From a virus: DNA of 57,831 nucleotides. The stretch spans positions 1-57,831 of the IMG/VR virus record IMGVR_UViG_3300006789_000027. One strand, 5' to 3'. The notes beneath the pieces were generated by a model. The model saw nothing but the letters and a program-made list of their open reading frames with translations, had not been told where the DNA came from and searched no databases. Positions within the stretch are counted from its first letter, which is position 1; the number at the start of each line of letters is the position of its first letter. Below are positions 2 through 48,999 of the stretch, piece after piece. The position numbers and the translations under genes are program-made.

Positions 2-874
2 TTTCATTACGACACTGATGACCTTCTAACAGACCTTTATGAGGGACATAGGTTAGAAGACTTGTATAAAAACCATAAGCTAGATGAGCTTACAAAGGCT
101 ATTTACAACAACGCAGATTTAGTATCTGTAACCCAAAGAAAGTTCGCAGAAAGAGTTATGCCTTTTATAAAAGGTACTCTTGTCGTAATTAAAAACGCAA
201 TTGATTACGACTTACCTTGTTGGAATTTTCCTAAACCTCAAGTCCCTAAGAAAGCTCCCTGTCGAATTGGATGGGTAGGAGGAATTCACCATGAGCAAGA
301 TTTAAAGCAGGTTCCCAACGTTGCTATGGGAGTTAATGCCAAAGTGGGACCTGAGAAAGTTCATTGGAGATTCTTTGGGAGACCTCCCCTTAATAAGAAA
401 GGCGACAAAGGTGATTGGCAACAGGACGTATGGAATAATTATGAGAAGATCCTAACCAGAGGGATTCGGCATAGGAATTGGGCTGTATATCCTGCAATGG
501 CATCCCACCTGTACGGAGCTATGTTTCCGAATATGGATATTGCTATTGCTCCCTTGGAGTGGAATAACTTTAATGACTCTAAATCCGAAATTAAGCTTAT
601 GGAGTGTGGTAGGTATGGGATTCCTTTAATTGCTACAGACTGCGGATGTTACGATGAGGTTATTAAGAATGGGGTTACGGGGTACCTTGTATCTAAGGAC
701 AACCCAAGGGGTGAATGGGTTTCAGCTTTGTCTCGCCTTATTAAAGACAAAGATTTACGAGAAGAAATGGGTAGAAATCTGAAGAAAATCACAGATGAAC
801 GCTTTAATATTAATAATCATATACATTCCCGCTTGGAGTTATATGAACAACTTTTAGAACGTGTCGAAAATTAA
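2..874 (+). CDS. Glycosyltransferase, GT-B fold (5' end outside window)
   Basis: The reading frame is open from base 2, so the start lies upstream of the window; the ATG-like codon at 62 is internal. The first visible residues (YDTDDLL) resemble the acidic stretch of the N-terminal Rossmann domain of GT-B enzymes. The C-terminal half has the sugar-nucleotide-binding pattern of GT4/GT1 enzymes (EIKLMECGRYGIPLIAT, then a GVTGYLV loop). It probably transfers a sugar from a nucleotide donor onto a surface or virion glycan. It overlaps the next gene by 14 nt. The exact sugar and acceptor cannot be told. Confidence 0.8.
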   Translation, partial: FHYDTDDLLTDLYEGHRLEDLYKNHKLDELTKAIYNNADLVSVTQRKFAERVMPFIKGTLVVIKNAIDYDLPCWNFPKPQVPKKAPCRIGWVGGIHHEQDLKQVPNVAMGVNAKVGPEKVHWRFFGRPPLNKKGDKGDWQQDVWNNYEKILTRGIRHRNWAVYPAMASHLYGAMFPNMDIAIAPLEWNNFNDSKSEIKLMECGRYGIPLIATDCGCYDEVIKNGVTGYLVSKDNPRGEWVSALSRLIKDKDLREEMGRNLKKITDERFNINNHIHSRLELYEQLLERVEN

Positions 875-1643
875 AATAATATCGGGCTGGACTAACCCTG
901 GAGGTTCTACGGTTGCATTTATAAACTTGTGTAATCTTTTTAACGAGAATGGTTTAGATTGTACGTTTTATGGTCCTCATGATTGGCACTTGGACAAGTG
1001 TAAGGCGGGAAGACTTCAAGAGTGTGCTGTAAATGAGGAAGGTGAAAATCTCATAGTACACTTTTTGAAGTTTCCTGAAAGACCTGAAAGCTCGAATAAA
1101 GTTATTTTAGCTTGTCATGAGAAGCAAGTATTTCCCATAAAGGAAATAAAGCCTTTTTGGGATGACATCGTATATGTGTCTGAATCTCAAATGAAGTGGC
1201 AAGAAGTTACGGGGGAGATTATCCCCAACATAATTTTCCCCCTTATTGAAAGAGAAAAATCCTTTGTATCTGCAGGAGCTATTGGAAGTATAGATAGAAA
1301 CAAAAATACGCATGTTTCCATCGAAAGAGCTTTAGCGGACGGGCATTCTGAAATGCTTCTATACGGGCTAGTAACTGATGAAGTGTATTACTCCGAGGAA
1401 GTAAAAAACTACGTCGAGTCTGGTTACGCAAAAATTATGAAACATGAGAATGACAAACAGAAAATGTATGATACCCTTTCAGATGTTTATCATAGCTCAC
1501 TCAGTGAGACTTTTAATTTTATTAAGCCTGAGTGTGAAAAAGCAGGTGTTAGGTATCACGGATTAGACTCCGCTGAATCTGGAGCGGGATATTGGACCTC
1601 AGAAGATATACTGAGTAAATGGAAGGAACTGCTAAAGGTATGA
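861..1643 (+). CDS. Putative glycosyltransferase-like protein
   Basis: 260 aa from a GTG start that overlaps the end of the preceding glycosyltransferase. A Rossmann-like N-terminus with a glycine-rich GGSTVAF loop near residue 14 resembles the first domain of GT4-type enzymes. The usual E-x7-E acceptor/donor motif is weak, around PECEKAG near the C-terminus. The gene sits in a compact run of overlapping glycan genes. Most likely a divergent glycosyltransferase. The family call is by fold pattern and position, not by a decisive motif. Confidence 0.5.
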   Translation: MSKIKIISGWTNPGGSTVAFINLCNLFNENGLDCTFYGPHDWHLDKCKAGRLQECAVNEEGENLIVHFLKFPERPESSNKVILACHEKQVFPIKEIKPFWDDIVYVSESQMKWQEVTGEIIPNIIFPLIEREKSFVSAGAIGSIDRNKNTHVSIERALADGHSEMLLYGLVTDEVYYSEEVKNYVESGYAKIMKHENDKQKMYDTLSDVYHSSLSETFNFIKPECEKAGVRYHGLDSAESGAGYWTSEDILSKWKELLKV

Positions 1644-3628
1644 CTGTACTTAAAAAAATGGAACAAAGTTCTCAGAGAATAGTGGTCTTAACGACCTTGT
1701 ATAATTGTGAAGAGTGGATTGATAAATGCATTCAATCTATTAAAGACCAGACGTATGATAATTATAAGTGTTTCATTTTAGATGATATGTCAACGGACTC
1801 TTCAGTAGAAAAAGCTAAAAAATCTATTGGCGATGACCCTAGGTTCTTTATAGTTCAAAATACTAAAAAGTATTACCAGACTGGAAACTACGATCAAATT
1901 ATTAGGAGTGATCAAGTTCAGGATGATGATATTTGCGTCGAAGTTGATGGGGACGATTGGTTGCCCGATAGTGGTGTTTTTGACAGAGTGATTGATACCT
2001 ATTCAGAGGGGGAGATTTGGATTGCTTTTGGGCAGTTTAGATATGCAGATGGGCGTAAAGGCTTTGCCCAACAAGGAAGCGTAGCTCAATGCAGGACGAG
2101 TGTGTTTACAATGTCTCACCTAAGAACTTGGAAAGCGTTTTTGTGGCGTAGCATTCAGGTTGAAGATTTATACACTTATACGGGCTGGTATTCTGATGGA
2201 GGGGGAGATGTATTCTTTATGACCCCCATGTATGAGATGGCTACAGAACGGCACACTAAATTTATGGAGGGTATTAATTATGTTTATAATGATGATAATC
2301 CTCTTAACGATCATAAAAGGGAAAGCAATCCACAACACCAACACGCTAATTTTGCTAGAAGTAAGTCCCCCTACGGACCCCTTAATTTTGGATATAACCT
2401 CTTAACTCCTTATCGTTTTGATTTAGTCCCCAAATTCTTGTATGCTTCGTATAAAGAGGCTAAACTAAAGACTGATTTTGCAGTTGATATTTACAAAGAA
2501 CATTTACGTGTTTGGAATGGCTTTAAGGAGTACGATAATCCATATAAGAATACCTTTGAAAAATTTAAGGAGTGTTTTGATAATTTAATTGCTTCTATGC
2601 GAGAGAGCGGGTTTGATAAAAACTACCCCGTCCCTACTACTCCAGAAGGACACCTCTTAAATGGATCGCACCGAACAGCGGCAGCTTACATTACTAATTC
2701 AACTTTAAGAACACAGAAGACTACTGAGCCCTCTGCTGGTCAGCTTGATTGCGGCTCTGCTTTTTTTAGAAATTTAGGTTTAGGTAAAAAGCACTTAGAT
2801 TTTATAGCTTTAGAGTATGCTAAACTGAAACCTAGTACTAAAGTTATTACCTTACATCCCGTGAGAGATCCTTCTAAGGAAGAAGCAGTAACTGATTTAA
2901 TATATTCTACCACCGAAGTTGTTTATGATTCAGTAGTTCCTTTAGAAAAAATTGGATTTACCAGATTTATGAGCCAAATGTATTTAGGGGAATCTTGGTT
3001 AAGCACACCACAAGATCCGATAGCTGGAGCAAAGATTAAAGCAGGCTTATGTTGGGGCTCTACCCCTGTTCGTGTTATCTTAATTGAAGAGGCTGACCTA
3101 GAAAAAGTAAATTCGCTTAAATCGAATATTCGGAGTATTTATAATATTGATAAGTCTTCAGTCCACATTAATGATACTCATGAAGAGACTTTACGATTAG
3201 CAAGAGTAATATACAATCCCAATAGTGTTTATTTCCTGAATAAAGGTAATCCTGATTTTTCGGAAAAGCTTAGTATTGAATTGAATAAGTACAAGAGAAC
3301 TATTGAAGGTAATAATTTAAATTCTGATCTTTTCTGTGTAACAGGAAGTGCGGTGATGTCCTTGTTTGGGTTGCGAGAATGTGCTGATTTAGACTATCTC
3401 CATTATAATCCTAATCATATTATTAAAGGTAGCTCTTACATTAGTTCACATGAAAATGAGTTAAGTAAGTATCCTATGCATAAAGATGACATTTTGTTCA
3501 ACCCTAATAACCATTTTTATTGGAACAACATAAAGTTTGCTACATTAGACGTTGTGAAATCTTTAAAGGCCCATAGAGGGGAAGCCAAAGATTTAGTTGA
3601 TGTTAAGTTAGTGGAGAGTATTTTATGA
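1619..3628 (+). CDS. Multidomain GT2 glycosyltransferase with C-terminal nucleotidyltransferase-like domain
   Basis: 669 aa. Residues ~15-250 are a GT-A/GT2 domain: VLTTLYNCEEWI nucleotide loop, LDDMSTD, then the metal-binding VEVDGDDW. Around residue 347 is LNGSHRTAA, like the ligand loop of ParB/sulfiredoxin-type domains. Around residues 577-595 is a GSAV-FGLRE-DLDYL pattern resembling the active site of nucleotidyltransferases (GS followed by D-x-D). The start at 1619 overlaps the previous gene; an internal ATG at 1640 is an alternative. The N-terminal GT2 call is firm; the middle and C-terminal calls are by motif only. A single chain could both activate and transfer a substituent. Confidence 0.65.
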   Translation: MEGTAKGMTVLKKMEQSSQRIVVLTTLYNCEEWIDKCIQSIKDQTYDNYKCFILDDMSTDSSVEKAKKSIGDDPRFFIVQNTKKYYQTGNYDQIIRSDQVQDDDICVEVDGDDWLPDSGVFDRVIDTYSEGEIWIAFGQFRYADGRKGFAQQGSVAQCRTSVFTMSHLRTWKAFLWRSIQVEDLYTYTGWYSDGGGDVFFMTPMYEMATERHTKFMEGINYVYNDDNPLNDHKRESNPQHQHANFARSKSPYGPLNFGYNLLTPYRFDLVPKFLYASYKEAKLKTDFAVDIYKEHLRVWNGFKEYDNPYKNTFEKFKECFDNLIASMRESGFDKNYPVPTTPEGHLLNGSHRTAAAYITNSTLRTQKTTEPSAGQLDCGSAFFRNLGLGKKHLDFIALEYAKLKPSTKVITLHPVRDPSKEEAVTDLIYSTTEVVYDSVVPLEKIGFTRFMSQMYLGESWLSTPQDPIAGAKIKAGLCWGSTPVRVILIEEADLEKVNSLKSNIRSIYNIDKSSVHINDTHEETLRLARVIYNPNSVYFLNKGNPDFSEKLSIELNKYKRTIEGNNLNSDLFCVTGSAVMSLFGLRECADLDYLHYNPNHIIKGSSYISSHENELSKYPMHKDDILFNPNNHFYWNNIKFATLDVVKSLKAHRGEAKDLVDVKLVESIL

Positions 3629-4362
3629 GTAAGCTAAATGTTCCTTTTTATGTGTCTACTAATAACAAGCATCTTGAATGCTTGGAGGTCTTCATCCATA
3701 TATTTAATCAGTGTATTCCAGAGCAAGAGCTTATAGTTTTAGGCTATAATAAACCATCGTATGAATTACCTGAAAATTGTAAGTTTATTTCAATGGGTGA
3801 GCAGGGGGATGTTTCCGAGTGGTCAACAGACCTGAGAAGATACTTTTTAGGCTGTGATGATGATTATTTCCTATATGGAACTGAAGATACTTTCTTTTAT
3901 GATACACCAAAAATTGAATACATTAACTACTTGTTGGGAAGAATGAAAGATAATGGGGCAATAGGGAGAGTTCAACTTACAGATGGCGCAGAGGAAAATG
4001 ATTGCACTCTTGAAACCAGTTGGCATTATAAAGTAAAATTGGTAGATGAAGTTACTGAGTGTCCTTGGGGAGACTTTAAACTGTTTAAACAAGTTCAGGG
4101 AAGCAATTATACTATAAACACGCAATTTTCACTTTGGAATAAGGAGTACTTTCTTAAATACATGACTGATGGGATGACCCCTTGGCAATTTGAAATTGAT
4201 GGCTCAGTACGAGCAAGAAATGACAGTAATTACGAAGTATGGATGGTCGATGGAACAATCCCAATCAAGAAAAAAGAAGGGTATCAGGCAGGAAGATGGC
4301 AAAACGTAGAGCATTGGGCTCATGCATTAGGTAATAAACTAAAAAAGAGAATTTTAACATGA
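3625..4362 (+). CDS. Putative glycan-biosynthesis protein, unrecognised family
   Basis: 245 aa, ATGA overlap with the upstream gene and a 4-nt overlap with the downstream one, so it belongs to the same translational unit. Acidic aromatic motifs (GCDDDYFLYGTED) around residues 74-87 look like the DXD metal site of GT-A folds. The C-terminus is basic and ends KKRIL. No family could be named with certainty. A nucleotide-sugar-dependent transferase acting on the same glycan is the likeliest role from context. Confidence 0.45.
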   Translation: MSKLNVPFYVSTNNKHLECLEVFIHIFNQCIPEQELIVLGYNKPSYELPENCKFISMGEQGDVSEWSTDLRRYFLGCDDDYFLYGTEDTFFYDTPKIEYINYLLGRMKDNGAIGRVQLTDGAEENDCTLETSWHYKVKLVDEVTECPWGDFKLFKQVQGSNYTINTQFSLWNKEYFLKYMTDGMTPWQFEIDGSVRARNDSNYEVWMVDGTIPIKKKEGYQAGRWQNVEHWAHALGNKLKKRILT

Positions 4363-5231
4363 ATTATATAAAAGAAGAGACTTTGGGAGAACAAGATGAA
4401 AGCTATCATAGATATTTGCTAGTATGTGAAAAAGCATCTACTGATGATGATACCTTTCAAAATTTTAAATCGGATCCAAACTACACATACGAACTAGAAC
4501 ATACATCTGCACCCTTAGGAGAACACTACGTCTCCCTGCTTCTAGAGGAATACCCGAGTATATTAAAAGAGTTGGATTGGGATAAAATAAGAATAAATGA
4601 TAGGCACGGTAATACGGCAAAGCATAATTTTTCAAGACTACTTAACTACTGTGGTGGCGATAGTGAGTTTTCACCAACAACCATTGGCTACTTGTATCTC
4701 GCTTTACGAATGCTTCATAACCTGAAAAAACAAAATAAGAACAATATTGATGTTTTTGAAATAGGGTGTGGTTATGGGGGACAATGCTACTTATTTCACA
4801 TAATTTCAGAATTCATGGGTATCACAATTAACTCATACAACTTAGTTGACCTACATCATGCAACGACCCTGCAAGAGAAATACCTCGCTCTTTTAGGTAT
4901 AACAGAAACTGTTAATTTTCTCTCGTGCAAAGATTTTGATGAGTGGAAAACTAAAATTGAAAATGTTGATTATGTGATTAGCAATTATGCTTTTTCCGAA
5001 ATGAGTGACTCATGGGCAAGAAGATATCTGGATACCATTGTCTCAAAAGCAAAGCATGGGTTTTTTCAATGGAATAATAGGGATGGGAAAGACGGCAGCA
5101 GTCGAGGAGGCAACCTTACATTATCCGAATTTGTTAGCAAAATTCCTGATAATAACTCTATGATTCAGGATCCAGGTAACCCTTTACATTTATATCCGCA
5201 ATGGCACTACATGAGACTAATTGAGTTTTAA
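4359..5231 (+). CDS. Putative sugar O-methyltransferase (SAM-dependent)
   Basis: 290 aa. The central region has a class I methyltransferase glycine-rich loop (VFEIGCGYGGQC, about residues 132-143), an acidic VDL after beta-2 and a C-terminal region rich in aromatics (GFFQWNNRDG), the usual layout of putative sugar O-methyltransferases in glycan islands. The N-terminal 120 residues are helical and presumably bind the acceptor. It lies between glycosyltransferases and phosphonate genes, so methylation of a sugar residue is plausible. Confidence 0.6.
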   Translation: MNYIKEETLGEQDESYHRYLLVCEKASTDDDTFQNFKSDPNYTYELEHTSAPLGEHYVSLLLEEYPSILKELDWDKIRINDRHGNTAKHNFSRLLNYCGGDSEFSPTTIGYLYLALRMLHNLKKQNKNNIDVFEIGCGYGGQCYLFHIISEFMGITINSYNLVDLHHATTLQEKYLALLGITETVNFLSCKDFDEWKTKIENVDYVISNYAFSEMSDSWARRYLDTIVSKAKHGFFQWNNRDGKDGSSRGGNLTLSEFVSKIPDNNSMIQDPGNPLHLYPQWHYMRLIEF

Positions 5232-5232: not shown

Positions 5233-5895
5233 ATGAAGAATATAATTATACTTGCTGCTGGACCCCCCAAATACGAAAGAAATCGTCATTTAGAGATTTT
5301 TGATGGGGAGATTTTAATTGATAAAGTAATCAATAAGTGTAGAATAGATGATACAAAATTATATGTGGTTATTGATAAAAGCAATAATCAACTAAGAGAT
5401 CACCTAGAAAATTTAAATGATATTCAAATACTCTACCCAGAGGATCAGAGAATGTACAGCACCTTTAAAGAAGCCTTGTCTGTAGACGGAGACTGCATTA
5501 TGGTTGCTGGAGATTTAATTGGGTTACGGAGTGGGGACATAGAAAAGTTTGTTAATAGTAACTTTAAATCAGCTATCTGTAAGTATGCTCATCCTTGGGG
5601 TAATAATCTTATACAAAAAGGAATGATTAGACGGGCAGACGTAGGAGACTGTATTAATATGATATGTCAGGAGCATAAGGAAGAGTTTTTAAGCAACGAT
5701 AATAGGGATAAGGCGCAGGACTTGTGGAGTATTTTTTTTGAAGGCGCTACTATGAATCCTTACATTTATAATGACGTAGGTACGTTTATGTCCTATTCTT
5801 TTTATCACAATCTTTGGTCAGATCCTAAAACTGACTCTAGAGGAGAAAAAGGATTAATACCTTTTAATCACAATATTTATAATGACAATGATTAA
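5233..5895 (+). CDS. MobA/LicC-like nucleotidyltransferase
   Basis: 220 aa from the ATG at 5233; a TTG at 5221 in frame is unlikely. It starts with the beta-strand-loop IIILAAGPP typical of NTP-transferase (GT-A-like) domains, but the usual GxGxR segment is replaced by PPKYERNR. MVAGDLIG near residue 92 could supply the second metal-binding acidic residue. It directly precedes the PEP-mutase gene. LicC/PntC-like enzymes activate phosphocholine or AEP with CTP, so this may be a second activating enzyme beside the HxGH enzyme at 8573. Substrate uncertain. Confidence 0.55.
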   Translation: MKNIIILAAGPPKYERNRHLEIFDGEILIDKVINKCRIDDTKLYVVIDKSNNQLRDHLENLNDIQILYPEDQRMYSTFKEALSVDGDCIMVAGDLIGLRSGDIEKFVNSNFKSAICKYAHPWGNNLIQKGMIRRADVGDCINMICQEHKEEFLSNDNRDKAQDLWSIFFEGATMNPYIYNDVGTFMSYSFYHNLWSDPKTDSRGEKGLIPFNHNIYNDND

Positions 5896-5904
5896 TAGAT
5901 CAAA

Positions 5905-6774
5905 ATGAAAACTATAAAAGAATTATTAAATGACGTAAAAGCTACTAATGTTGTTATAGGGGCCAACAACCCTTTAATAGCAGAACTAGCTATGAGAGCG
6001 GGGTATGATGGGGTATGGGTATCAAGCTTTGAATCTCATGCATGGAACCTTCTACCAGACGCAAACATTCTAAATACGACTGATTACTTTGATACTATTA
6101 GCAAGATTAGTGACAGGATAAGTATTCCTATTTTGGTGGACGCTGATGAGGGTGGTCCTAGCTCTATTAATACAATTAGAATGGTTAGAGAGTATGAGAA
6201 GGCAAAAGCTTCTGCTATGTGTTTTGAGGATAATCCATCTCCTAAGCGGTGTTCTTTTTATGGGATGAAGCAAAGTTTGGAAACACCAGAGATTATGTGC
6301 GGCAAGATTAAAGCAGCAGTAGAGAAAAGATTAGATAAAGATTTTGCAATCATTACTAGAACAGAGGCTCTAATTCAAGGTCATGGTCAGTTGGTTGCTT
6401 TAGAGAGAGCTAAAATGTACAACGATGCTGGGTGCGATGCGTTTTTAATTCACAGCAAGAGTAAGACTCCAGAAGAGGTTTTAGAATTTGCTGATGCGTA
6501 TCATAAAGCTAATCTTCGCGCACCTTTGGTTTGTGTGCCTACTACGTATAATAAGGTGACTATAGACGAATTAAACAGTGCAGGGTTTAGTTTGGTAATT
6601 TACGCTAACTACTCTGTTAGAGCGGCAGTAAAAGCAATTCAGGATGTTTTTAAAAAGATACATGAGGGAGGTTCTTTATCTGCTGCTAATGATGATGTAG
6701 TTGAGATGGAAAATATATTTGAATTGATTCGAGTGGATCAACTTAAGGACAACCAGCAAAGATATGGATCCTAA
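5905..6774 (+). CDS. pepM: PEP mutase / isocitrate-lyase superfamily enzyme (PepM-like)
   Basis: 289 aa, full-length match in pattern to phosphoenolpyruvate mutase: AGYDGVWVSS near the N-terminus, the Mg-binding D79-A-D81, HSKSKTPEE, then VPTTYNKVT and VIYANYSVRAAVKAIQ. PepM converts PEP to phosphonopyruvate, the entry step of phosphonate biosynthesis. The hallmark loop EDKxxxKxNS is altered here: residues 108-117 read EDNPSPKRCS. Lys114 is kept, but the first Lys is Asn and the catalytic-loop Asn is Cys, giving a KRC string like that of methylisocitrate lyases. The downstream decarboxylase and transaminase genes favour a PEP-mutase role. It overlaps the next gene by 11 nt. Confidence 0.75.
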   Translation: MKTIKELLNDVKATNVVIGANNPLIAELAMRAGYDGVWVSSFESHAWNLLPDANILNTTDYFDTISKISDRISIPILVDADEGGPSSINTIRMVREYEKAKASAMCFEDNPSPKRCSFYGMKQSLETPEIMCGKIKAAVEKRLDKDFAIITRTEALIQGHGQLVALERAKMYNDAGCDAFLIHSKSKTPEEVLEFADAYHKANLRAPLVCVPTTYNKVTIDELNSAGFSLVIYANYSVRAAVKAIQDVFKKIHEGGSLSAANDDVVEMENIFELIRVDQLKDNQQRYGS

Positions 6775-7159
6775 CCTGTTTGATAGTTTAGTGCGTGAAG
6801 GTTATACATTCTTCACTGGAGTTCCTGATAGTGCGTTAAAACAATTTCAAGACGATATTATAAACTCTGGGCTACGGCATGTCATTGCAACCAATGAAGG
6901 TCAAGCGATTGGCATAGCTGTAGGAGCAGAATTAGCGGGTGAAAAGGCTTGTGTTTATTTGCAAAACTCTGGTTTGGGTAACATTATAAACCCAGTAACT
7001 AGTTTGTGTATACCTTATGGTATTCTACCTTGTTTAGTCATTGGGCATCGACATACTTTGCCTCAACATAGAATTATGGGAGAAACTGATGAAAAGTTAC
7101 TTCAGTTGATTGGATACACAAATTACACCATTGTTAAAGGGGGTAATAATGTTAACTAG
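6764..7159 (+). CDS. Phosphonopyruvate decarboxylase, alpha (PYR) subunit
   Basis: 131 aa corresponding to the pyrimidine-binding half of TPP-dependent phosphonopyruvate/sulfopyruvate decarboxylases: FFTGVPDSALK, the cofactor-activating glutamate in NEGQAIG (Glu45), and YLQNSGLGNIINPVTSL. With the next gene it would decarboxylate phosphonopyruvate to phosphonoacetaldehyde, the irreversible step that pulls the PEP-mutase equilibrium. In most phosphonate producers this is one ~380-aa chain; here it is two, as in archaeal ComD/ComE. The last 11 nt overlap the beta gene. Confidence 0.8.
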   Translation: MDPNLFDSLVREGYTFFTGVPDSALKQFQDDIINSGLRHVIATNEGQAIGIAVGAELAGEKACVYLQNSGLGNIINPVTSLCIPYGILPCLVIGHRHTLPQHRIMGETDEKLLQLIGYTNYTIVKGGNNVN

Positions 7160-7610
7160 AGAGGAGTCTATTAGAGAGATATTTGAAAAGCATGGTGACG
7201 CTGTTTACGTGACCAACACTGGTTACATGTCCAGGGCTGTGTATAGTTTATATCCCGACAAAGAAAGCATATTCTATATGCAAGGCAGCATGGGTATTGC
7301 CCCGTGTATTGGTTTGGGCATTGCTAAGAATACAACTAAAGATGTTGTAGTTTTAAGTGGGGACGCTGCACTACTAATGCATTTAGGGATTACTCATAGC
7401 ATTCGTGATGCAAACTTGCCTAACTTATTCGTTTATGTATTAGATAATGGTTGTCATGAGTCTGTTGGAGGTTACGATTGTTCATTTTTGGAAAAGAACT
7501 ACCCTGGAGTTACTAAGATTTATAAAATTAGCAATGACGGAAAGTGTCCTAGAGTGGAGGTTGAGTGTTTAGAAAATACAAAAAGGGTTAAGGATTTTTT
7601 AAATGCATAA
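7149..7610 (+). CDS. Phosphonopyruvate decarboxylase, beta (TPP-binding) subunit
   Basis: 153 aa from the ATG at 7149, preceded by an AAGGGGG ribosome site inside the alpha gene. It is the diphosphate-binding half: GDAALLMHLG (Gly71-Asp72) and LDNGCHESVGG (Asn100) form the GDG...N motif that holds Mg-TPP. Length and order match the C-terminal half of single-chain Ppd. The own ribosome site and clean reading frame argue for a real two-subunit enzyme rather than a broken gene. It overlaps the transaminase gene by 8 nt. Confidence 0.82.
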   Translation: MLTREESIREIFEKHGDAVYVTNTGYMSRAVYSLYPDKESIFYMQGSMGIAPCIGLGIAKNTTKDVVVLSGDAALLMHLGITHSIRDANLPNLFVYVLDNGCHESVGGYDCSFLEKNYPGVTKIYKISNDGKCPRVEVECLENTKRVKDFLNA

Positions 7611-8592
7611 GATACTACTCAACCCAGGACCAACTAATACGAGATATAAAACTAAAGAGGCCCAGACTAACGGCTCTGATGTCTGTCATAGGACGGAAGA
7701 GTTTAAAAGTATATTGCAGCAGACTAAAAATCTATTACTGAAGAGATTTGGTTCCTCATGTGGGTTTAAGATTGCTTTATTGGGGGGAAGTGGGACTATT
7801 GGAATGGAAGCAATGATTTCCTCTCTTGTGGATGAAAAAGTGGTTGTGCTCAATGCTGGCATCTACGGGCAAAGGGCAGTAGACATGCTGAAGATTTATG
7901 GTGTAGAGTATACTGAAGTTCCTGTTAAAGACATCAGAGATGTTAAACCTAACGAAGAGTATAAATGTGTTTATTTCGTAGAGAATGAAACTACGACAGG
8001 TGAACACTTCCCTTTAGAAATACTAGCACAGAAGTATCCTAATGCTAAGTTTTTTATTGACGCTACATCCTCTTTTGGAGCATCTAAATATGATGACTTT
8101 TTAAATAGAATCAATGTAATTTCTTTTTGTAGCAATAAATGCTTGCAGTCAACCCCCGGCCTTGGCATTGTAATATGGGACGAGAGACTGAAATGTCATG
8201 GTAGATCTTATTATTGTGATTTAAGTAGGTATACATCTGAAAGTATACCGTTCACCCTCCCTGTCCAGTCAGTATATGCACTACATTCTACTCTAGAAAT
8301 AACTTCCAACCATCAAGAGTGTTTTAACGAGAGAAGAGATAAACTAATTTTAGAGTTTTCTAAGATGGGAATAGAATCAATAAATTACTTACCCAGCAAT
8401 TCTATTATAGGATTCAAACATCCTACTATGAAGTATGAACAATTAAGAGACTTTTTGTATGATCGGGGGTTGGTCATATATGCGGGGGTAAAGGGGATAG
8501 AAAACAGTTTTAGAGTTTCTACTATGAGTTCTATTTTTGATGATAAATTTAATTTTATAATGGAGAAATTTAATGAAACGTGTATACGCTGA
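7603..8592 (+). CDS. phnW: 2-aminoethylphosphonate transaminase (PhnW-like)
   Basis: 329 aa class-V PLP aminotransferase. LLNPGPTNT at the N-terminus, GGSGTIGMEA (residues 61-70), Asp153 in DATSSFGA, and the Schiff-base Lys179 in SNKCLQSTPGLG fit AEP transaminases closely. In a biosynthetic setting it aminates phosphonoacetaldehyde to 2-aminoethylphosphonate. No phosphonatase (phnX) is adjacent, so a synthetic rather than catabolic direction is inferred. A little shorter than the usual ~360 aa but with all core motifs. Confidence 0.82.
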   Translation: MHKILLNPGPTNTRYKTKEAQTNGSDVCHRTEEFKSILQQTKNLLLKRFGSSCGFKIALLGGSGTIGMEAMISSLVDEKVVVLNAGIYGQRAVDMLKIYGVEYTEVPVKDIRDVKPNEEYKCVYFVENETTTGEHFPLEILAQKYPNAKFFIDATSSFGASKYDDFLNRINVISFCSNKCLQSTPGLGIVIWDERLKCHGRSYYCDLSRYTSESIPFTLPVQSVYALHSTLEITSNHQECFNERRDKLILEFSKMGIESINYLPSNSIIGFKHPTMKYEQLRDFLYDRGLVIYAGVKGIENSFRVSTMSSIFDDKFNFIMEKFNETCIR

Positions 8593-9415
8593 TATAGTAG
8601 GTGATTTATTTCATGTAGGTCATTTGAATTTGTTTAAACAGGCTAGAGAGTTTGGAGACTTATTGATAGTTGGAGTTCATTCGGACGCCACAGTAGAATC
8701 TTATAAAAGAAAACCTGTCATAGAAGAAAACTATAGGTACGAGATTGTTAAAAATTGCAGACTAGTGGATGAGATTATAGAAAACGCTCCTAGGATGATT
8801 ACTAAGGAGTTTATTGATAGGCACAACATAGATGTGGTTGTACACGGAGATGACCCCAGCCCAGAGTTTGAAGAACAACATAAAGTACCTTTAGCTTTGG
8901 GTATTATGAAGTATGTTAAGTATACTAAAGGGATATCGTCAACGGAAATTATAAAAAAAACACAGGACGTTGCTGATAGGAAAAATCTTAAAGCTGAAAA
9001 AGAAATAGTTAAAGTTAGATCTAAATTGAATAATAAAATGCTTCATTGTGTTTACAGAGCGTCTGAATTAGTTTCGGGAAGGACGGAGTTAATTGAGCCT
9101 GATAATTTTATTCAGTGTGCTTATTTAAAGATGGATAAGGGCAAAACCTTTAGAGCACATAAACATATCTGGAAGAAGCCTTGCTTTGAGGAAATGATTG
9201 CTCAAGAAAGTTGGGTAGTAATTCGAGGTAGTGTAAAAGTGCATTTTTTTGACACGGAAATGCAGCCTTTAGAAACGCACATACTTAAAGCAGGAGATGC
9301 CTCGTTTACTTTAGAAGGAGGGCATACCTATGAGATTTTAGAGGATAACACCCTAGTATACGAATATAAAACCGGCCCCTACGAAGGCCAAGAATTAGAT
9401 AAGGTATTTAATTAG
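8573..9415 (+). CDS. CTP:(amino)alkylphosphonate cytidylyltransferase fused to a cupin domain
   Basis: 280 aa. Residues 1-130 are a nucleotidyltransferase of the ethanolamine-/choline-phosphate cytidylyltransferase type: HVGH at 14-17 and ISSTEII at 121-127, both nucleotide-binding signatures. Residues ~150-280 form a cupin-like barrel (FRAHKH, VVIRGSVKVHFF, ILKAGDASF). Located straight after the AEP transaminase, it probably makes CMP-AEP from CTP and AEP for transfer onto a glycan or lipid. The fused cupin is unusual; it may bind the substrate or regulate, or be an independent epimerase-like activity. It overlaps phnW by 20 nt. Confidence 0.75.
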   Translation: MKRVYADIVGDLFHVGHLNLFKQAREFGDLLIVGVHSDATVESYKRKPVIEENYRYEIVKNCRLVDEIIENAPRMITKEFIDRHNIDVVVHGDDPSPEFEEQHKVPLALGIMKYVKYTKGISSTEIIKKTQDVADRKNLKAEKEIVKVRSKLNNKMLHCVYRASELVSGRTELIEPDNFIQCAYLKMDKGKTFRAHKHIWKKPCFEEMIAQESWVVIRGSVKVHFFDTEMQPLETHILKAGDASFTLEGGHTYEILEDNTLVYEYKTGPYEGQELDKVFN

Positions 9416-9416
9416 A

Positions 9417-10007
9417 ATGAATTTTAACACGGTAAAAGAATTTGAGAATACCATAGCAGAGTTCTACGGAGCTCCTTATGGAGTTGCTGTAGATTGCTGC
9501 ACTCATGGAGTAGAACTAGCTCTGCGATATACCTGTGCAGAGTCAATTACAGTCCCAACTAGAACCTATATTTCTATTCCTTTTCTAGCTAATAAACTAG
9601 GAATAGAGTTGCAGTGGACAACAAAGGAGTGGGAAGACTACTATTATTTAACGCCTGAAGTTATAGATGCAGCTGTATTGTGGACTAGAAATAGCTATAT
9701 TCCTGGAACCTATATGTGCTTAAGTTTTCAATTCCAGAAACATTTAAGTTTAGGGAGAGGAGGTATGATCCTAACAGATAACGAATCTGCCGCTTTAAAT
9801 CTTAAAAAGATGTCTTATGACGGCAGACTTCCCGATAAGCCCTGGAGAAATCAAGATATTAGTAGTATGGGATATCATTATTACATGACTCCTGAGACTG
9901 CACAGAACGGATTAGATAAGTTTGAAGAGGCGAAAAATAGAAATCCTCGCCAATGGAAATGGAAAGACTGGCCTGATCTAAGAAATATGAAAATATTTAA
10001 CACCTAG
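9417..10007 (+). CDS. Short DegT/DnrJ/EryC1-type aminotransferase
   Basis: 196 aa, about half the usual 370-400 aa. It retains the PLP core: DCCTHGVELAL (phosphate loop), TRTYISIPFLAN, and the Schiff-base region SFQFQKHLSLGRGGM with Lys108. The C-terminal small domain that normally completes the dimer and sugar pocket is missing, and the gene ends cleanly with a stop. With the GDP-mannose dehydratase next to it, amination of GDP-4-keto-6-deoxymannose (perosamine-type) is the natural guess. It could equally be inactive. No frameshift is visible. Confidence 0.65.
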   Translation: MNFNTVKEFENTIAEFYGAPYGVAVDCCTHGVELALRYTCAESITVPTRTYISIPFLANKLGIELQWTTKEWEDYYYLTPEVIDAAVLWTRNSYIPGTYMCLSFQFQKHLSLGRGGMILTDNESAALNLKKMSYDGRLPDKPWRNQDISSMGYHYYMTPETAQNGLDKFEEAKNRNPRQWKWKDWPDLRNMKIFNT

Positions 10008-10021: not shown

Positions 10022-10984
10022 ATGCAAAAAGTAGCGTTAATTACAGGAATCTCTGGGCAGGACGGAAGTTATCTATCAGAGTACCTTCTCTCGAAAGGGT
10101 ATGAAGTACATGGTATCGTTCGTCGCAACTCAGTAGCGGAAAATCAAGACAGTAGGATTGCTCATCTGGACGTAACTTGTCACTACGGAGACTTGTCAGA
10201 CATTCACTCCCTGCATAGAATTGTATCAGAGGTAAAGCCCGATGAAGTTTATAACCTTGGAGCCCAAAGCCATGTAAGAGTTAGCTTTGATGTCCCCGCA
10301 TTCACAATCCAGACGAATGCTATTGGCGTTTTGAATATTCTTGAGGTTTGCCGCATTCATGTTCCCAATGTAAAGTTTTATCAGGCTAGTTCCTCTGAGA
10401 TGTTTGGAAACTCTGTTGATGAGGATGGTTACCAAAGAAAGACTACCCCCATGATGCCCACTTCTCCGTATGGCTGTGCAAAAGTAATGGGGTACAATTT
10501 GGTTCGTCACTATAGAGCAGCGTATAATATGCACACTTGTAACGGCATTCTTTTTAATCACGAGTCCCCTCGTAGAGGATCAAACTTTGTCACTAATAAG
10601 ATTGTAAAAGGAGCAATTGAAATTAAAAAAGGTATTAGAGATACTTTAGCTTTGGGAAATTTAGATGCGTCTAGAGATTGGGGTCACTCTAAAGATTATG
10701 TAAGAGCCATGCATTTAATTAGTAATCATTCAGAGGCTTCTGATTGGGTGGTTGCCACGGGGGAAAGTAGAACTATTAGGGAGATGTGCGATGTAACCTT
10801 TTCATTGTTAGGTTTAAACTATAAAGATTATGTTACGGTAGATCCTAGGTTTTTTAGACCTCAAGAATTAGATTTTCTAAAAGGAGATTCTTCGGAAATC
10901 AGGAAAAAACTAAATTGGAAACCTAAGTACACATTCGAAGGTATGGTTTCGGAAATGGTTGATCATTGGATGAATATACTGTAA
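10022..10984 (+). CDS. gmd: GDP-mannose 4,6-dehydratase
   Basis: 320 aa extended SDR. ALITGISGQDGSYL gives the NADP-binding loop with the GQDG typical of Gmd; NLGAQSHVRVSF, then SSSEMFGN and the catalytic tyrosine-lysine pair in SPYGCAKVMG; LGNLDASRDWGHSKDYV is a family signature. It converts GDP-D-mannose to GDP-4-dehydro-6-deoxy-D-mannose, precursor of fucose, rhamnose or perosamine units. No fucose synthase is in the window; the neighbouring DegT protein is a candidate next step. Confidence 0.9.
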   Translation: MQKVALITGISGQDGSYLSEYLLSKGYEVHGIVRRNSVAENQDSRIAHLDVTCHYGDLSDIHSLHRIVSEVKPDEVYNLGAQSHVRVSFDVPAFTIQTNAIGVLNILEVCRIHVPNVKFYQASSSEMFGNSVDEDGYQRKTTPMMPTSPYGCAKVMGYNLVRHYRAAYNMHTCNGILFNHESPRRGSNFVTNKIVKGAIEIKKGIRDTLALGNLDASRDWGHSKDYVRAMHLISNHSEASDWVVATGESRTIREMCDVTFSLLGLNYKDYVTVDPRFFRPQELDFLKGDSSEIRKKLNWKPKYTFEGMVSEMVDHWMNIL

Positions 10985-11057: not shown

Positions 11058-12023
11058 ATGAGCATCTTAGATGATATTTGTAAGGATTTAGAGAACGCTT
11101 CGGTGCTCTCAAAAGAAAGCCAAATTTTTGGTTACGTGGACTCAGGTTCCTATGCCCTTAACAAAGTAATTTCGGGAGATTACAACGGAGGATATCCTAT
11201 TGGGGGTATTACAGAGATTTTCGGAGAAAGTAGTACGGCAAAAACCGTATTCCTCACCCACGCTTTTATTGGAGCCCAAAAGAAAGGTTATTATACCGTA
11301 ATGGTAGACAATGAGCATGCGTACTCTCCAGACTTCGCAGAGAAACTTGGGTTAGATACGAGCAAATTAATCTACGCAGAACCCGAATCATTAGAGGATT
11401 GTTTTGAGTTTATTGAAAAATCAATTTTGGCAATTCGCAAGAAAGACCCTAAAACCCCAATTCTCGTAGGGTATGATTCTATTGGAACATCCCCTACCAA
11501 TAAAGAGCTTTCAGATGGTTTTGGAAAGAACTCTGAGATGGGAGGAGCCCTCAGAGCTAAAGTAGCAGGGCAATGCCTAAGAAGAATTAATACTTTGCTA
11601 AGAAAGCATAAAGCAGGTTTAATCATTATTAACCAGATTAGAAGCAAGGTGGGAGTAATGTTTGGGGACCCTCGTACCAAGGCAGGAGGAGGCAAGGCAC
11701 TTCTTTACTATTGTGGAACCGCGTTAGAAACAGCATCGAGTAAGAGCGACCAAATGTTTGATGACCGTAAAAACCCTCTAGGTATTACAGGAACTATCAA
11801 GGCTGTAAAAAATAAAATAACAAAACCGTTCCAAACCTGTGAATTTAAGCTTTTATATGATGAAGGTTTAGTTTCCGAGCACGGACTAACCGAGTCCTAT
11901 TATAAAGATGGACTTGCGACTAAGCCAACACAGGGATGGTTCTCTATTGATGAGGGTAAGACCAAGCATCGAAAGGGAGACCTAGACAGAAAAATCGCAG
12001 ACAAACTAGAAGATGGACAATAG
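11058..12023 (+). CDS. uvsX: RecA/UvsX-like recombinase
   Basis: 321 aa. Walker A GESSTAKT at residues 56-63, DNEHAY strand, Walker-B-like ILVGYDSIG, and the L2-region LIIINQIRSKVG fit the RecA/UvsX core. It should form a nucleoprotein filament for recombination-dependent phage DNA replication and repair. It is preceded by CTTTAATATA three bases before the ATG, a motif repeated at other starts in this window. The C-terminus overlaps a small membrane-protein gene by 11 nt. Confidence 0.88.
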   Translation: MSILDDICKDLENASVLSKESQIFGYVDSGSYALNKVISGDYNGGYPIGGITEIFGESSTAKTVFLTHAFIGAQKKGYYTVMVDNEHAYSPDFAEKLGLDTSKLIYAEPESLEDCFEFIEKSILAIRKKDPKTPILVGYDSIGTSPTNKELSDGFGKNSEMGGALRAKVAGQCLRRINTLLRKHKAGLIIINQIRSKVGVMFGDPRTKAGGGKALLYYCGTALETASSKSDQMFDDRKNPLGITGTIKAVKNKITKPFQTCEFKLLYDEGLVSEHGLTESYYKDGLATKPTQGWFSIDEGKTKHRKGDLDRKIADKLEDGQ

Positions 12024-12279
12024 CACGTTTTATATGATTATGGGAGCATTCATTGGAATCTCTCTATACCAGGTATACCAACATATTTCTTTTTTAAGGT
12101 CGGAAGGAAAACGTAAAAAAGAAGAGGATGCAAAGCAGAGAGAGCTTGTTATTTTAAGACTTAGCTCTGAAGTAAAAGCTGTAAAAAGCCTTTTGGGTGA
12201 GATGCAGAAAGAAAGAGAGTTGGAAGAAGTTCGATTATTAACAGAAGGATTAAAACATGCCGAGAGTAACATCTCTTAA
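12013..12279 (+). CDS. Small membrane-anchored coiled-coil protein
   Basis: 88 aa. One N-terminal hydrophobic segment (about residues 6-20), then a highly charged helix rich in Lys, Glu and Leu with coiled-coil periodicity. It overlaps uvsX by 11 nt and the next cupin gene by 23 nt. Function not recognised; an inner-membrane tether or spanin-like role is possible but unsupported. Confidence 0.6.
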   Translation: MDNSTFYMIMGAFIGISLYQVYQHISFLRSEGKRKKEEDAKQRELVILRLSSEVKAVKSLLGEMQKERELEEVRLLTEGLKHAESNIS

Positions 12280-12682
12280 TAAGTTCGCTGATTCTCGAGG
12301 ATGGAGTTTAAATGACATTTATGCTCAGATTCCATTAACAAGCAGACAGCAAGTAAATTTTTCTATCTTGTATCCGGGAATTGTAAAAGCCTGGCACAGA
12401 CATAAACATCAAGATGATTATTTTTGTGTTCTTACAGGCATGGCTCAGGTAGGAGTTTACTCTGATGAAAATGGAGCCGAAAAATTTTTCATAGGAGAGC
12501 ATAACCCTGCAGTTATTCATATTAAGGCAGGAGAATGGCATGGACTTACCGCCATAGGAGATAAGCCTGTAGGTTTGCTTTATATGGTTACTAAGGACTA
12601 TAACCCTAATGAGCCAGATGAAGAAAGAGCTGGACATTTAAGTTTTGTGGATGATGAGTGGTGGAAACCGGAGAATAAGTGA
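12257..12682 (+). CDS. Cupin, dTDP-4-dehydrorhamnose 3,5-epimerase-like (RmlC-like)
   Basis: 141 aa single cupin. DSRGW near the N-terminus, NFSILYPGIVKAWHRHKHQDD and CVLTGMAQVGVY, then HIKAGEWHGL match RmlC/sugar 3-keto-isomerase cupins, including the His expected to act as base. ATG is preceded by AGAAGGA. It would act with rmlA, rmlB and rmlD, which lie about 3 kb downstream, in making dTDP-L-rhamnose or a related sugar. The separation from the other rml genes leaves some doubt on substrate. Confidence 0.7.
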   Translation: MPRVTSLNKFADSRGWSLNDIYAQIPLTSRQQVNFSILYPGIVKAWHRHKHQDDYFCVLTGMAQVGVYSDENGAEKFFIGEHNPAVIHIKAGEWHGLTAIGDKPVGLLYMVTKDYNPNEPDEERAGHLSFVDDEWWKPENK

Positions 12683-34454: not shown

Positions 34455-34512
34455 TTTCTTTACCTATTACGAGTTTAGGAGAATGAGGGTGGTGTCCCTC
34501 TGTGATGACCCT

Positions 34513-35103: not shown

Positions 35104-35109
35104 GAAAGT

Positions 35110-35863: not shown

Positions 35864-35869
35864 GAAAGT

Positions 35870-45910: not shown

Positions 45911-47398
45911 ATGGTTTCTAAAAAAGAAGAAATATTAGAAGAACTTCGGAAATGCTCCGAAGATCCCGCCTATTTCATTAGAAACTACGTAAACATTGAG
46001 CATCCTATTAAAGGCATAGTACCTTTCGATTTATATCGATTTCAAGAAAAAATTATTAGTGAAGTTGAAGAATACCGATTTAACATTATTAGGAAGTTTA
46101 GACAAGCGGGAATTACTACTATCTGTGCGGCGTATTCCCTTTGGGCTATAATCTTCAAAAATAATCACAATATTATGGTTGTCTCTATTGGAGATCGGGA
46201 ATCTACCGCATTTCTTCGCAGAGTAGTTCTCATGTATGATGATCTTCCTGTATGGCTTAAACCAAAGATTACTGAAAAAAACAAACACTCTTTGTACCTT
46301 AGCACTGGAAGTCGTGTAAGAGCTCAACCTGCTGGTGCTGGACGAGGTGAATCTGTATCTCACTTGATTGTTGATGAGGCTGCATTTGTTGATAAGATGC
46401 GTGAGTTTTGGGCTGCGGTATACCCTACAATTTCTACCGGAGGTAAGGCTACTTTGATTTCAACGGTTAATGGAATGTCTAATCTATACTACGAGCTTTA
46501 CCGGGATGCGGAGTTAAAGAAAAATTCTTTTAACGTATTAGACCTTCATTGGAGAGAGCATCCAGAATACACTGACGAGTGGGCTAAGGAGAATAGACCT
46601 ATTATTGGGGAACGCATGTGGGCTCAAGAGTATGAGTGTGAATTCCTTGGCACAGGAGATACTTTTATAGATGGAAACACCTTGAAGCGTCTAAAAGGAA
46701 ATTCTTGCGAGGACTACTCGACTAGACACTCGGGCAAACTTAGAGTATTTCGGGAGCCTGACCCGTACCACCAGTATGTGCTAAGCGTCGATACCTCTTT
46801 TGGTAGAGAGCGTGATTACTCTGCATTTCAGATTATTAATCTTTACAGTGGTGAGCAAGTAGCAGAGTTCTATTCAAACACCACTCCAATCTCTAACTTT
46901 GCAAAAATTATTAAATCAGAAGGTGATGCTTATAACACGGCTCACTTAGTAGTTGAAAGGAATGGTTTGGGGATTGCACTGATTCAAGAACTATTTGATG
47001 TTCTTGAGTACGAAAACATGTGGATGGATGACAAAGGAGAATTTGGAATCCAGATCACTACTAAAACGAGAGAAGGAGTACTCTCCTCTTTAGAGGAAGC
47101 TCTTCGAGCTTCCAAGTTCAAAATTAATTCTGAGCGGACAATTGATGAGTTGATGACCTTTATTGTGAACGACAGCGGTAAAGTTCAGGCTGATGACGGC
47201 TATCATGATGACCTAGTTATGAGCTTAGCCCTTGCAGCCTCTGTTCTTGAGGAGTTAAAAGATAATGCTCCTATTATTCCTATGGGGACTAAAGATTTGA
47301 ACGAGGATAATCCAATTAAAGAACAATATAATATTCCAATACACATATCTAATAATGATAAAACCACTGAGGACATGTCATGGGTGATAAAAGACTAA
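45911..47398 (+). CDS. Large terminase subunit (T4 gp17-like)
   Basis: 495 aa. N-terminal ATPase: Walker A RKFRQAGITT (61-70), Walker B HLIVDEAAF with Asp155-Glu156. C-terminal RNase-H-like nuclease: VLSVDTSFGRERD, then a distal DGYHDDLVMS acidic pair. It pumps DNA into the prohead and cuts it. Overlaps the portal gene by 19 nt. Confidence 0.92.
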   Translation: MVSKKEEILEELRKCSEDPAYFIRNYVNIEHPIKGIVPFDLYRFQEKIISEVEEYRFNIIRKFRQAGITTICAAYSLWAIIFKNNHNIMVVSIGDRESTAFLRRVVLMYDDLPVWLKPKITEKNKHSLYLSTGSRVRAQPAGAGRGESVSHLIVDEAAFVDKMREFWAAVYPTISTGGKATLISTVNGMSNLYYELYRDAELKKNSFNVLDLHWREHPEYTDEWAKENRPIIGERMWAQEYECEFLGTGDTFIDGNTLKRLKGNSCEDYSTRHSGKLRVFREPDPYHQYVLSVDTSFGRERDYSAFQIINLYSGEQVAEFYSNTTPISNFAKIIKSEGDAYNTAHLVVERNGLGIALIQELFDVLEYENMWMDDKGEFGIQITTKTREGVLSSLEEALRASKFKINSERTIDELMTFIVNDSGKVQADDGYHDDLVMSLALAASVLEELKDNAPIIPMGTKDLNEDNPIKEQYNIPIHISNNDKTTEDMSWVIKD

Positions 47399-48999
47399 AC
47401 GAAGATAATCTTAACGAATCGTATACTGAATTCGGCCAGTTCAAAGCCGGGTATGGAGCTACCGGAAGCGGAGCTCTTTCAAGCTTCTTTGGGAAGTTTT
47501 TTGCTCGTAGGGGACGTAAGTTCACAAAAGGCGGAAGACTTGCAGGAGATGCCGCTACAACCTCAGATACCTTTGAGGGTGTTCCAGGTATTGGAGTTTC
47601 CAAAGGACTTCCTAAGTTGCCTCAGGTTGAATACGAACGAAAACGTAGGTATAAAGAGTATGAGGATATGGATGAGTATCCAGAAATCGGAGCCGCGTTG
47701 GACATCTATTCTGATGATGCATCGCAAAAGAATATCCGAGGAGAGGTTTTTGAGGTTAATGGTCCCAATGAGCAGATTGAATCTATCGTAAAAGATTTTC
47801 TTGAAACTGCAAAAATTAAAGAGTTTATCTGGGATATTATTCGTAACGTATGTAAGTACGGAGATTGTTTTATTGAGAATATTGTGGACCTTAATAACCA
47901 AGATGCGGGAATCCAAAGAATTAAAATCTTAAACCCCAACTATGTCTCCAGGGTTGAAAATAAGTATGGGTACTTGGAAAACTTCCTACAGGAGATTCCA
48001 GAAGCTAAAAGTGCTTTTCTTCCCGATCCTAGTCAAGGGATGGGTCAAGGAACTGGCAAGTATATGAAGCTCGATAAGGAGCAGGTCGTTCACTTTAGAA
48101 CGCATACTTCCGATCCAAATTTTTACCCTTATGGCAAGTCAATCTTAGCCGCAGGAGTAAGAGCTTGGAAGTCTTTGAAGCTTATGGAAGATGCTATGCT
48201 CATCTACAGGTTGGCCCGTGCTCCAGAAAGACGTGTGTTTTATGTCGATGTAGGTAACATGCCTACTTCTAAAGTAGAAATGTATATGGAGCGTCTTAAG
48301 CAGAAGTTTAAGAAAGAAAAGTTTTGGGATGGTCAAACAGGTAACATCAGTGAAAGATATAACCCTTTATCCACGGACGAAGATTTCTTTGTCCCTACGA
48401 GACCTAAAGGTTCAACTAAAATCGAAACCCTACCAGGAGCTCAAAATCTTGGCGAGACCGACGATGTAAAATACTTTAGAGATAAGCTCCTTGCAGCACT
48501 TAAAGTACCCAAAGATTATATTGTAGAAAAGGATAAATCTCCAGAGCGCAAAGCAAACCTTTCCCAATTGGATATTAAATTTGCACGTGCGGTTACTAGA
48601 GTCCAACGAGAGGTAGAGATTGGACTTACCATGCTTGCTAAGAGACATCTTACTCTTCGCAATATTCCAGGTCATCAACTCATAGGTCTTGAAGTTGTTC
48701 TATGTCCTCCTTCCGACATGTTCGAAAAGAGACGGCTAGAATTGGATGATCAAAAAATTAGAGTAGTTCAAGCCGTTAAGGGTTTGGAATTATTCCCGGA
48801 TGAATGGATTTATGAAAACTATTTCCAAATGACAGAGCAAGGTATTAAAGATACTATGTCTAAAATGGAAGCTCAAAAGGAAAAGCAAGCTGAAGCGATG
48901 GCAGCTCAAGATCCTATGGCAGGGGGAATGCCTCCCCCTATGCCGGGAGAAGAAGGTATGGAAGGTGAAGAAATGCCTCCAGATGAGGAGCCTGTATAA
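47380..48999 (+). CDS. Portal protein (T4 gp20-like)
   Basis: 539 aa, close to T4 gp20 length. DEYPEIGAALDIYSDDAS, LNPNYVSRVENKYGYLE, KYMKLDKEQVVHFRTHTSDPN and APERRVFYVDVGNMP are hallmarks of T4-type portals. Acidic Met/Pro-rich C-terminal tail. Twelve copies form the DNA gate at the head vertex and dock the terminase. Confidence 0.92.
   Translation: MGDKRLNEDNLNESYTEFGQFKAGYGATGSGALSSFFGKFFARRGRKFTKGGRLAGDAATTSDTFEGVPGIGVSKGLPKLPQVEYERKRRYKEYEDMDEYPEIGAALDIYSDDASQKNIRGEVFEVNGPNEQIESIVKDFLETAKIKEFIWDIIRNVCKYGDCFIENIVDLNNQDAGIQRIKILNPNYVSRVENKYGYLENFLQEIPEAKSAFLPDPSQGMGQGTGKYMKLDKEQVVHFRTHTSDPNFYPYGKSILAAGVRAWKSLKLMEDAMLIYRLARAPERRVFYVDVGNMPTSKVEMYMERLKQKFKKEKFWDGQTGNISERYNPLSTDEDFFVPTRPKGSTKIETLPGAQNLGETDDVKYFRDKLLAALKVPKDYIVEKDKSPERKANLSQLDIKFARAVTRVQREVEIGLTMLAKRHLTLRNIPGHQLIGLEVVLCPPSDMFEKRRLELDDQKIRVVQAVKGLELFPDEWIYENYFQMTEQGIKDTMSKMEAQKEKQAEAMAAQDPMAGGMPPPMPGEEGMEGEEMPPDEEPV

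Follow-up and report, generated by a model that had tools for sequence, protein, structure and literature searches.

The formation of a C-P bond is rare chemistry; phosphonates make up a large share of marine dissolved organic phosphorus and are a source of marine methane. In bacteria such as Treponema denticola, Pnt clusters encode a phosphoenolpyruvate (PEP) phosphomutase (Ppm), a phosphonopyruvate decarboxylase (Ppd), a 2-aminoethylphosphonate (AEP) transaminase and cytidylyl activation, next to glycosyltransferases (Rice et al. 2019, PMC6697681). In the pepM clusters of Prochlorococcus and SAR11, phosphonate genes adjoin those for cell-surface glycans (Acker et al. 2022, PMC8931226), and cellular phosphonoglycans of marine bacteria have been proposed as partial protection against phages (PMC8931226). 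Viral genes for phosphonate degradation have been reported (PMC13188868), and we found no report of phosphonate biosynthesis in phages, complete or otherwise, in the open-access papers searched. Here we describe a locus at positions 5233-9415 of the viral record IMGVR_UViG_3300006789_000027. The whole IMG/VR record, 57,831 bases and linear, is referred to as the window. Judged by its gene families, the locus quite likely makes AEP and its cytidine monophosphate-activated form, CMP-AEP.

The locus consists of six consecutive genes on the + strand, with neighbouring genes overlapping by 8-20 bases or lying within about 10 bases of each other. The last five encode Ppm (5905..6774), a PEP phosphomutase family enzyme of a type that we call Cys-loop after its motif EDNPSPKRCS (Pfam PEP_mutase, 8e-38; TIGR02320, 1e-75; PDB 5unc, 1.4e-61); PpdN (6764..7159) and PpdC (7149..7610), the N- and C-terminal halves of Ppd (TIGR03297 positions 2-121, 3e-31, and 170-284, 1e-26), the latter keeping NGCHESVGG; a PhnW/AepZ-type AEP transaminase (7603..8592; TIGR03301, 3e-53; PDB 1m32, 2.5e-24); and a cytidylyltransferase (residues 1-131; CTP_transf_like PF01467, 8e-23) fused to a WbuC-like cupin (about residues 146-280; cupin_WbuC, 1e-9) in one gene (8573..9415). 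A preliminary description of this DNA had proposed a PEP mutase, both Ppd halves, an AEP transaminase and a cytidylyltransferase in this order, and the coordinates and the Pfam and NCBIfam matches confirm it. Its proposal of a full AEP/CMP-AEP route in a phage also stands as the best reading, with four contiguous families for the four steps on a record that carries a T4-like portal and terminase.

Family membership and gene context suggest what each enzyme would do. Ppm would convert PEP to phosphonopyruvate, and the split Ppd would convert this to phosphonoacetaldehyde, drawing the unfavourable Ppm step forward. The PhnW-like enzyme would aminate phosphonoacetaldehyde to AEP, which the PF01467 domain would combine with cytidine triphosphate to give CMP-AEP. 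A transferase, probably LicD in two relatives and possibly the C-terminal region of a GT2 protein in the window, would then move AEP onto a glycan that the neighbouring glycosyltransferases, together with GDP-sugar enzymes, would build. The product, made during infection, would alter the host surface glycan, for example by blocking re-adsorption or superinfection; neighbouring genes and analogy point to both this target and this benefit. Taken as a whole, the reading of the locus as a phage-borne phosphonyl-tailoring module that puts AEP on a host surface glycan during infection appears fairly probable. If AEP or CMP-AEP is indeed made, analogy indicates that a host surface glycan is the likely target.

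The module is not confined to one odd phage, and about thirty related viral contigs have either this set or a variant. Searching IMG/VR with a back-translated query gave six relatives whose Ppm is 79-100% identical to that of the window, and wider searches found the exact EDNPSPKRCSFYG motif in eleven other IMG/VR contigs, one of which (L002) is nearly identical to the window. The order Ppm-PpdN-PpdC-PhnW-cytidylyltransferase is kept in the window and in L003, L005, L015, L016, L017, L018 and L124, the order in L005 being otherwise intact around a single methyltransferase gene inserted ahead of PhnW. Contig ends limit this comparison for L004, which stops after PhnW, and for L006 and L007, which stop within Ppm. 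The order persists down to 49% PhnW identity between relatives; it is far beyond chance and is kept even though relatives differ in up to half of their residues. Between L003 and L004 the ratio of non-synonymous to synonymous substitution rates (dN/dS) was 0.04-0.06 for Ppm, PpdN, PpdC and PhnW. In more distant pairs the proteins stay similar and synonymous sites are saturated.

We then compared the phage Ppm with its cellular homologues. The best model for the phage enzyme was PEP mutase TIGR02320 (254 bits), ahead of phosphonopyruvate hydrolase (200) and methylisocitrate lyase (157). Aligned to the Mytilus PEP mutase (1m1b/1pym) and to 5unc, it keeps W44, S46, D58, D85, D87, E114, K120, S123, R159 and H190, which we take to be ligand and catalytic residues. 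A broadened alignment retrieved 80 cellular homologues, all at most 44% identical; an alignment of phage Ppm alone found none, its patterns being too phage-specific. These homologues fall into groups by their loop. Many of those with the canonical NS loop adjoin Ppd, and those with a TS or SS loop resemble phosphonopyruvate hydrolase, with no Ppd or PhnW found nearby in any of them. A third group of 16 (L026-L029, L032-L034, L037, L038, L040, L041, L043, L054, L069, L086, L087) has a Cys loop, ED[NSY]xxPK[RK]CS, and comes from Nitrospira, Planctomycetota, Binatota, Acidobacteriota, Omnitrophota, Myxococcota, Nitrospinota and Verrucomicrobiota. Ten of these 16 have homologues of both Ppd and PhnW within 3.6 kb, which supports a mutase role for the phage Ppm. 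Several also carry a C-terminal NTP-transferase (nucleotidyltransferase) domain with a PK motif, and such a domain is found on many PEP mutases (PMC6697681). In the final Ppm tree, from which two very long branches (Vibrio phage Va2 and methylisocitrate lyase) were left out, the phage enzymes form a single clade (100/100), long-branched and nested within the clade of Cys-loop enzymes (26 rows, 100/98), among which L052 has N for C. Judged by gene context, the Cys loop is compatible with AEP synthesis, and by its sequence the phage Ppm belongs to a Cys-loop class that an EDKxxxxxNS filter would miss.

The decarboxylase has both thiamine pyrophosphate (TPP) domains, and each half matches TIGR03297 best. 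It is encoded by two overlapping genes in all type-A and the main type-B phage loci. A broader scan revealed a second phage module, in viral contigs with a cytidylyltransferase-Ppm fusion and a canonical Ppm loop; the fusion Ppm passes the curated cut-off in the two examined (374 and 398 bits). In 19 such contigs, which reach 189 kb (L134, L135, L137-L141, L143-L152, L155, L156; for example L143 5569-8463), the fusion precedes a split Ppd, which shares 55-77% identity with that of the window, and an iron-alcohol-dehydrogenase-like gene, best matched by the phosphonate-associated model TIGR03405. This dehydrogenase is short (260-266 aa) and presumably complete. The second module probably makes CMP-2-hydroxyethylphosphonate, as far as its gene families indicate. 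A terminase was found on two of the second-module contigs tested (L144, L149) and a portal on one of them. In the Ppd tree the phage enzymes, including that of the window, form one clade (27 rows, 100/99) separate from cellular Ppds, with both module types interleaved within it. Since these close relatives follow a canonical PEP mutase, phosphonopyruvate is the likely substrate of the window Ppd.

The transaminase has a class V fold with PhnW/AepZ as best match, its pyridoxal phosphate lysine in SNKCLQSTPGLG is invariant, and its nearest solved relative is Treponema PntC-AEPT (6pd1, 6e-30). The PF01467 domain has HxGH and ISTT-type motifs, in the forms FHVGH and ISSTEII, and is the likely AEP cytidylyltransferase; in L003, cytidylyltransferase and cupin are two separate genes. 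The first gene of the six (5233..5895) has no match in Pfam or NCBIfam. Its predicted structure (predicted local distance difference test score, pLDDT, 81.5) matches PntC/GlmU/IspD nucleotidyltransferases, best the phosphonate-specific PntC-AEPT of T. denticola (6pd1, E 5e-8), and has the GT-A-type nucleotidyltransferase fold expected of PntC/LicC (PF12804). The preliminary description's LicC-like enzyme at the front of the cassette is thus upheld as a predicted fold. It does not belong to the core, since L015 and L018 lack the gene and carry the rest of the cassette, and we regard it as accessory. We set it aside as the AEP cytidylyltransferase because of this absence and because all aligned members have RNRHLE where the PK lysine of the PntC/LicC consensus is expected. 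A further reason is L023, which has this gene together with the C-terminal region of the GT2 protein but shows no Ppm in the 20.7 kb read.

The candidates for AEP transfer differ between relatives. LicD (PF04991) lies close behind the cytidylyltransferase in L015 and L018 (4e-10 and 6e-11). In Lic pathways, enzymes of the LicD family take phosphocholine from CDP-choline and transfer it. The window has a GT2 glycosyltransferase gene (1619..3628, + strand; Glycos_transf_2, 1e-16, residues 23-155) with a conserved C-terminal region (residues 261-669), found in 8 of the 11 viral records searched. The region (window 2399-3625; also L017 4105-6834 and L023 7143-9197) is marked by the motifs LLNGSHR, HINDTxEET, GLRxxxDLDYL and RGExKD. 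LicD and this region are mutually exclusive among Ppm-bearing records, which suggests that the region replaces LicD as the AEP transferase; its presence in L023 argues against this role. In L017 it is fused to a LicC-like domain in one 909-aa open reading frame (ORF). It had no Pfam match and no PDB sequence match, and we gave no weight to a weak match (E about 6e-3) to a nucleoside-diphosphate-kinase-like fold. In L018, a 479-aa protein with no Pfam match (11401-12840) lies between the cytidylyltransferase and LicD and ends in ILDGVHRLA, a motif that resembles NGSHRTAA in the C-terminal region of the GT2 protein.

Putative tailoring enzymes accompany the core in several relatives. PhyH-family oxygenases nearest to methylphosphonate hydroxylase lie upstream of Ppm in L005 (7076-7804) and L017 (7555-8289) and are candidate AEP hydroxylases. 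A B12-dependent radical SAM protein between the cytidylyltransferase and LicD of L015 (12038-13687) scores 570.5 bits against the Sden_1168 P-methyltransferase family, whose cut-off is 575. It would be difficult to account for several phosphonate-associated enzymes gathering at one locus, in different relatives, if the core did not make a phosphonate. In L005, a RuBisCO-family protein (8868-10004; PF00016, 8e-36; type III/IV-like) lies directly upstream of Ppm.

The rest of the record has the gene content of a T4-like phage, with genes for a DNA helicase (phrog_16), a UvsX/RecA-like recombinase (11058..12023; phrog_97, 1.8e-61), a T4-like terminase large subunit, TerL (45911..47398; phrog_2, 8e-47), and a T4-like portal protein (47380..48999; phrog_213, 3.6e-90), the last three all on the + strand. 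The terminase is ~35% identical to its nearest deposited relatives, mostly cyanophages (cyanophage gp17). The glycosyltransferases that the preliminary description placed beside the cassette were found, namely the GT2 gene and a GT4-like gene cut by the window edge (2..874; phrog_7162, 2e-30; Glyco_trans_1_4, 3e-10). Also on the + strand are a gene that travels with the cassette, placed by synteny, whose product has no Pfam match and is ~50% identical in L003, L004 and L007 (3625..4362), a putative NanM-like sugar O-methyltransferase (4359..5231; TIGR04371, 1.6e-8, a weak match under the cut-off), a DegT/DnrJ-family aminotransferase-like protein (9417..10007; PF01041, 4e-16), GDP-mannose 4,6-dehydratase (10022..10984; PF16363, 1e-116; TIGR01472, 5e-118) and a polysaccharide-biosynthesis cupin (12257..12682; PF14667, 3.5e-9). 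The DegT-family protein is short (196 aa); its counterpart in L003 (14198-14830) is likewise ~200 aa, so that the short length is conserved. Across the window and its relatives the cassette is surrounded by glycosyltransferases, GDP-mannose dehydratase, GT11 and methyltransferases. The envelope-glycan neighbours vary between phages, as expected of a surface-modifying island. G+C content rises to about 0.43-0.45 at window positions 34001-44000, from 0.35-0.40 over most other parts.

Several observations weigh against the proposed chemistry. The Ppm score lies below the curated TIGR02320 cut-off of 319.55, and EDNPSPKRCS, present in every phage copy of this type, fails the EDKxxxxxNS signature by which PEP mutases are recognised (Rice et al., PMC6697681), with the changes K116N and N122C relative to the canonical loop (Mytilus numbering). 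The transaminase scores under the TIGR03301 cut-off of 360.8, the Ppd halves reach 109 and 94 bits against a whole-model cut-off of 312.5, and GDA replaces GDG in the TPP motif of PpdC. We also know of no Cys-loop enzyme that has been assayed. Ppm could accordingly be read as another isocitrate-lyase-superfamily enzyme, a hydrolase or C-C lyase, with a product other than AEP, such as a sulfonate; the KRC of its loop is common to methylisocitrate lyase, and the Ppd halves also match the alpha and beta subunits of sulfopyruvate decarboxylase, for which a two-subunit layout is typical. We consider this unlikely, because PEP mutase is nevertheless the nearest hidden Markov model for Ppm, cellular Cys-loop enzymes co-occur with Ppd and PhnW, the same split Ppd stands behind canonical PEP mutases in the second phage module, and phosphonopyruvate decarboxylase is the top-scoring model for both Ppd halves. 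Far less probable still, to the point of being negligible, is that the cassette consists of bacterial DNA joined by an assembly error, which the preliminary description had named as what would refute it, or of decaying passenger genes. The assembly is metagenomic, but the cassette occurs together with a T4-like portal and terminase in three independent assemblies: the window, L004 (115.6 kb) and L124 (136 kb). This contradicts an assembly error and rules out bacterial contamination or a chimera, as do the conserved order across contigs and the strong purifying selection. Moreover, the distance to all cellular Ppm homologues found, the separate phage clade, a dN/dS of about 0.05 and a G+C content without a break at the cassette speak against this reading.

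The target of the phosphonate has to be weighed separately. LicD is absent from the window record, which counts against the proposed transfer step. Instead of the host surface, the same pathway could decorate the virion, placing a phosphonate glycan on a tail fibre or a capsid glycoprotein. Such a target would fit the structural- or lysozyme-looking genes that follow the glycan island in L015 and L003, and neither a flippase nor a polymerase for surface polysaccharide was recognised among the ORFs read. We nonetheless hold it to be rather unlikely, as there is no evidence for virion glycosylation and GDP-sugar, LicD and GT11 genes typically go with envelope polysaccharide or lipopolysaccharide (LPS). 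Decoration of the host surface is therefore preferred, with virion decoration second. The preliminary description had left open either a glycan or phage DNA as the target. Hypermodified bases are known in phages, some with aminoalkyl groups, but a search of 12 records (the window and 11 relatives, all incomplete) gave no homologue of thymidylate synthase or hydroxymethylase, and the variable neighbours are glycan genes, with LicD and GT11 in relatives. A surface glycan is for this reason much better supported than phage DNA, and modification of the phage's own DNA by AEP is very improbable. It should be noted on the other side that the window record, being linear, is probably a fragment, and modification genes could lie elsewhere in the genome.

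Together, these results suggest that a host surface glycan is tailored with AEP, and superinfection exclusion or camouflage through a phage-carried phosphonoglycan trait is our conjecture as to its use. More tentatively, and with somewhat less than even confidence, we propose that phages share a pool of C-P modules, comprising the Cys-loop AEP type, the cytidylyltransferase-Ppm hydroxyethylphosphonate type and a shared split-Ppd clade. With this pool, phages would cover the cells they infect in phosphonoglycans of a kind that depends on the phage (plain, hydroxylated or P-methylated), making them marine phosphonate producers that turn a proposed anti-phage trait on one another. If the main proposal is true, phages are possible phosphonate producers, and the surface-defence idea becomes testable from the virus side. 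Because the Cys-loop class fails the published motif filter (PMC6697681), cellular phosphonate producers, for example among Nitrospira and Planctomycetes, are perhaps undercounted.

Precedents among deposited phages are few. In line with the preliminary description, which knew of no well-described phage with the whole route, we found it in none of the 50,697 deposited phage records searched, and PHROG holds no family matching the Ppm, Ppd or PhnW genes. The family search that it had proposed gave one credible relative, Vibrio phage Va2 (MW073017), with an incomplete route. Va2 shares with the window a PEP mutase, annotated as such in the deposited record, and a TPP enzyme resembling Ppd; it differs in having a Ppm about 25-29% identical, the loop EDKNPSAKINS, a single-chain Ppd and no PhnW match. 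In Va2 the two genes flank ribonucleotide reductase genes (MW073017.1 104837-110942, L008). Two gut records deposited as 'Bacteriophage sp.' (MT837901.1, MT836947.1) were rejected as precedents, as their other genes look bacterial (for example a YidC-like gene on L011). The matches in Acinetobacter phage MD-2021a were rejected as methylisocitrate lyase beside prpC/acnA in apparently bacterial sequence. CAKLQH020000009.1 is deposited as 'phage', and its gene content near the match looks bacterial.

As far as we have checked, what is new is the conserved phage-specific modules, the split Ppd and the Cys-loop Ppm; the chemistry itself is known from bacteria. In the LPS/glycan islands of marine T4-like phages, too, glycosyltransferase and nucleotide-sugar genes are hypervariable and lie among core genes of the T4-like kind; to our knowledge the islands described so far have no C-P bond biosynthesis. 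The second phage module shares its PF01467-Ppm fusion with Fom1, the cytidylyltransferase-Ppm fusion of fosfomycin biosynthesis (cited in PMC6697681), and its iron-alcohol-dehydrogenase-like gene fits a Fom1-like hydroxyethylphosphonate route, but the module is phage-borne, with a split Ppd and a glycan context. The window module, in contrast to Fom1, has cytidylyltransferase and Ppm apart, plus a transaminase. Compared with the Pnt clusters, which have the same steps beside glycosyltransferases, the module described here is phage-borne, has its Ppd in two genes and a Cys-loop Ppm, and uses a PF01467 domain with a cupin rather than a PF12804-type PntC, with a transferase that is not LicD in the window record. 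The pepM clusters of Prochlorococcus and SAR11 share its setting among surface glycan genes; those clusters are cellular and their proposed role is protection against viruses, whereas here the viruses carry the trait.

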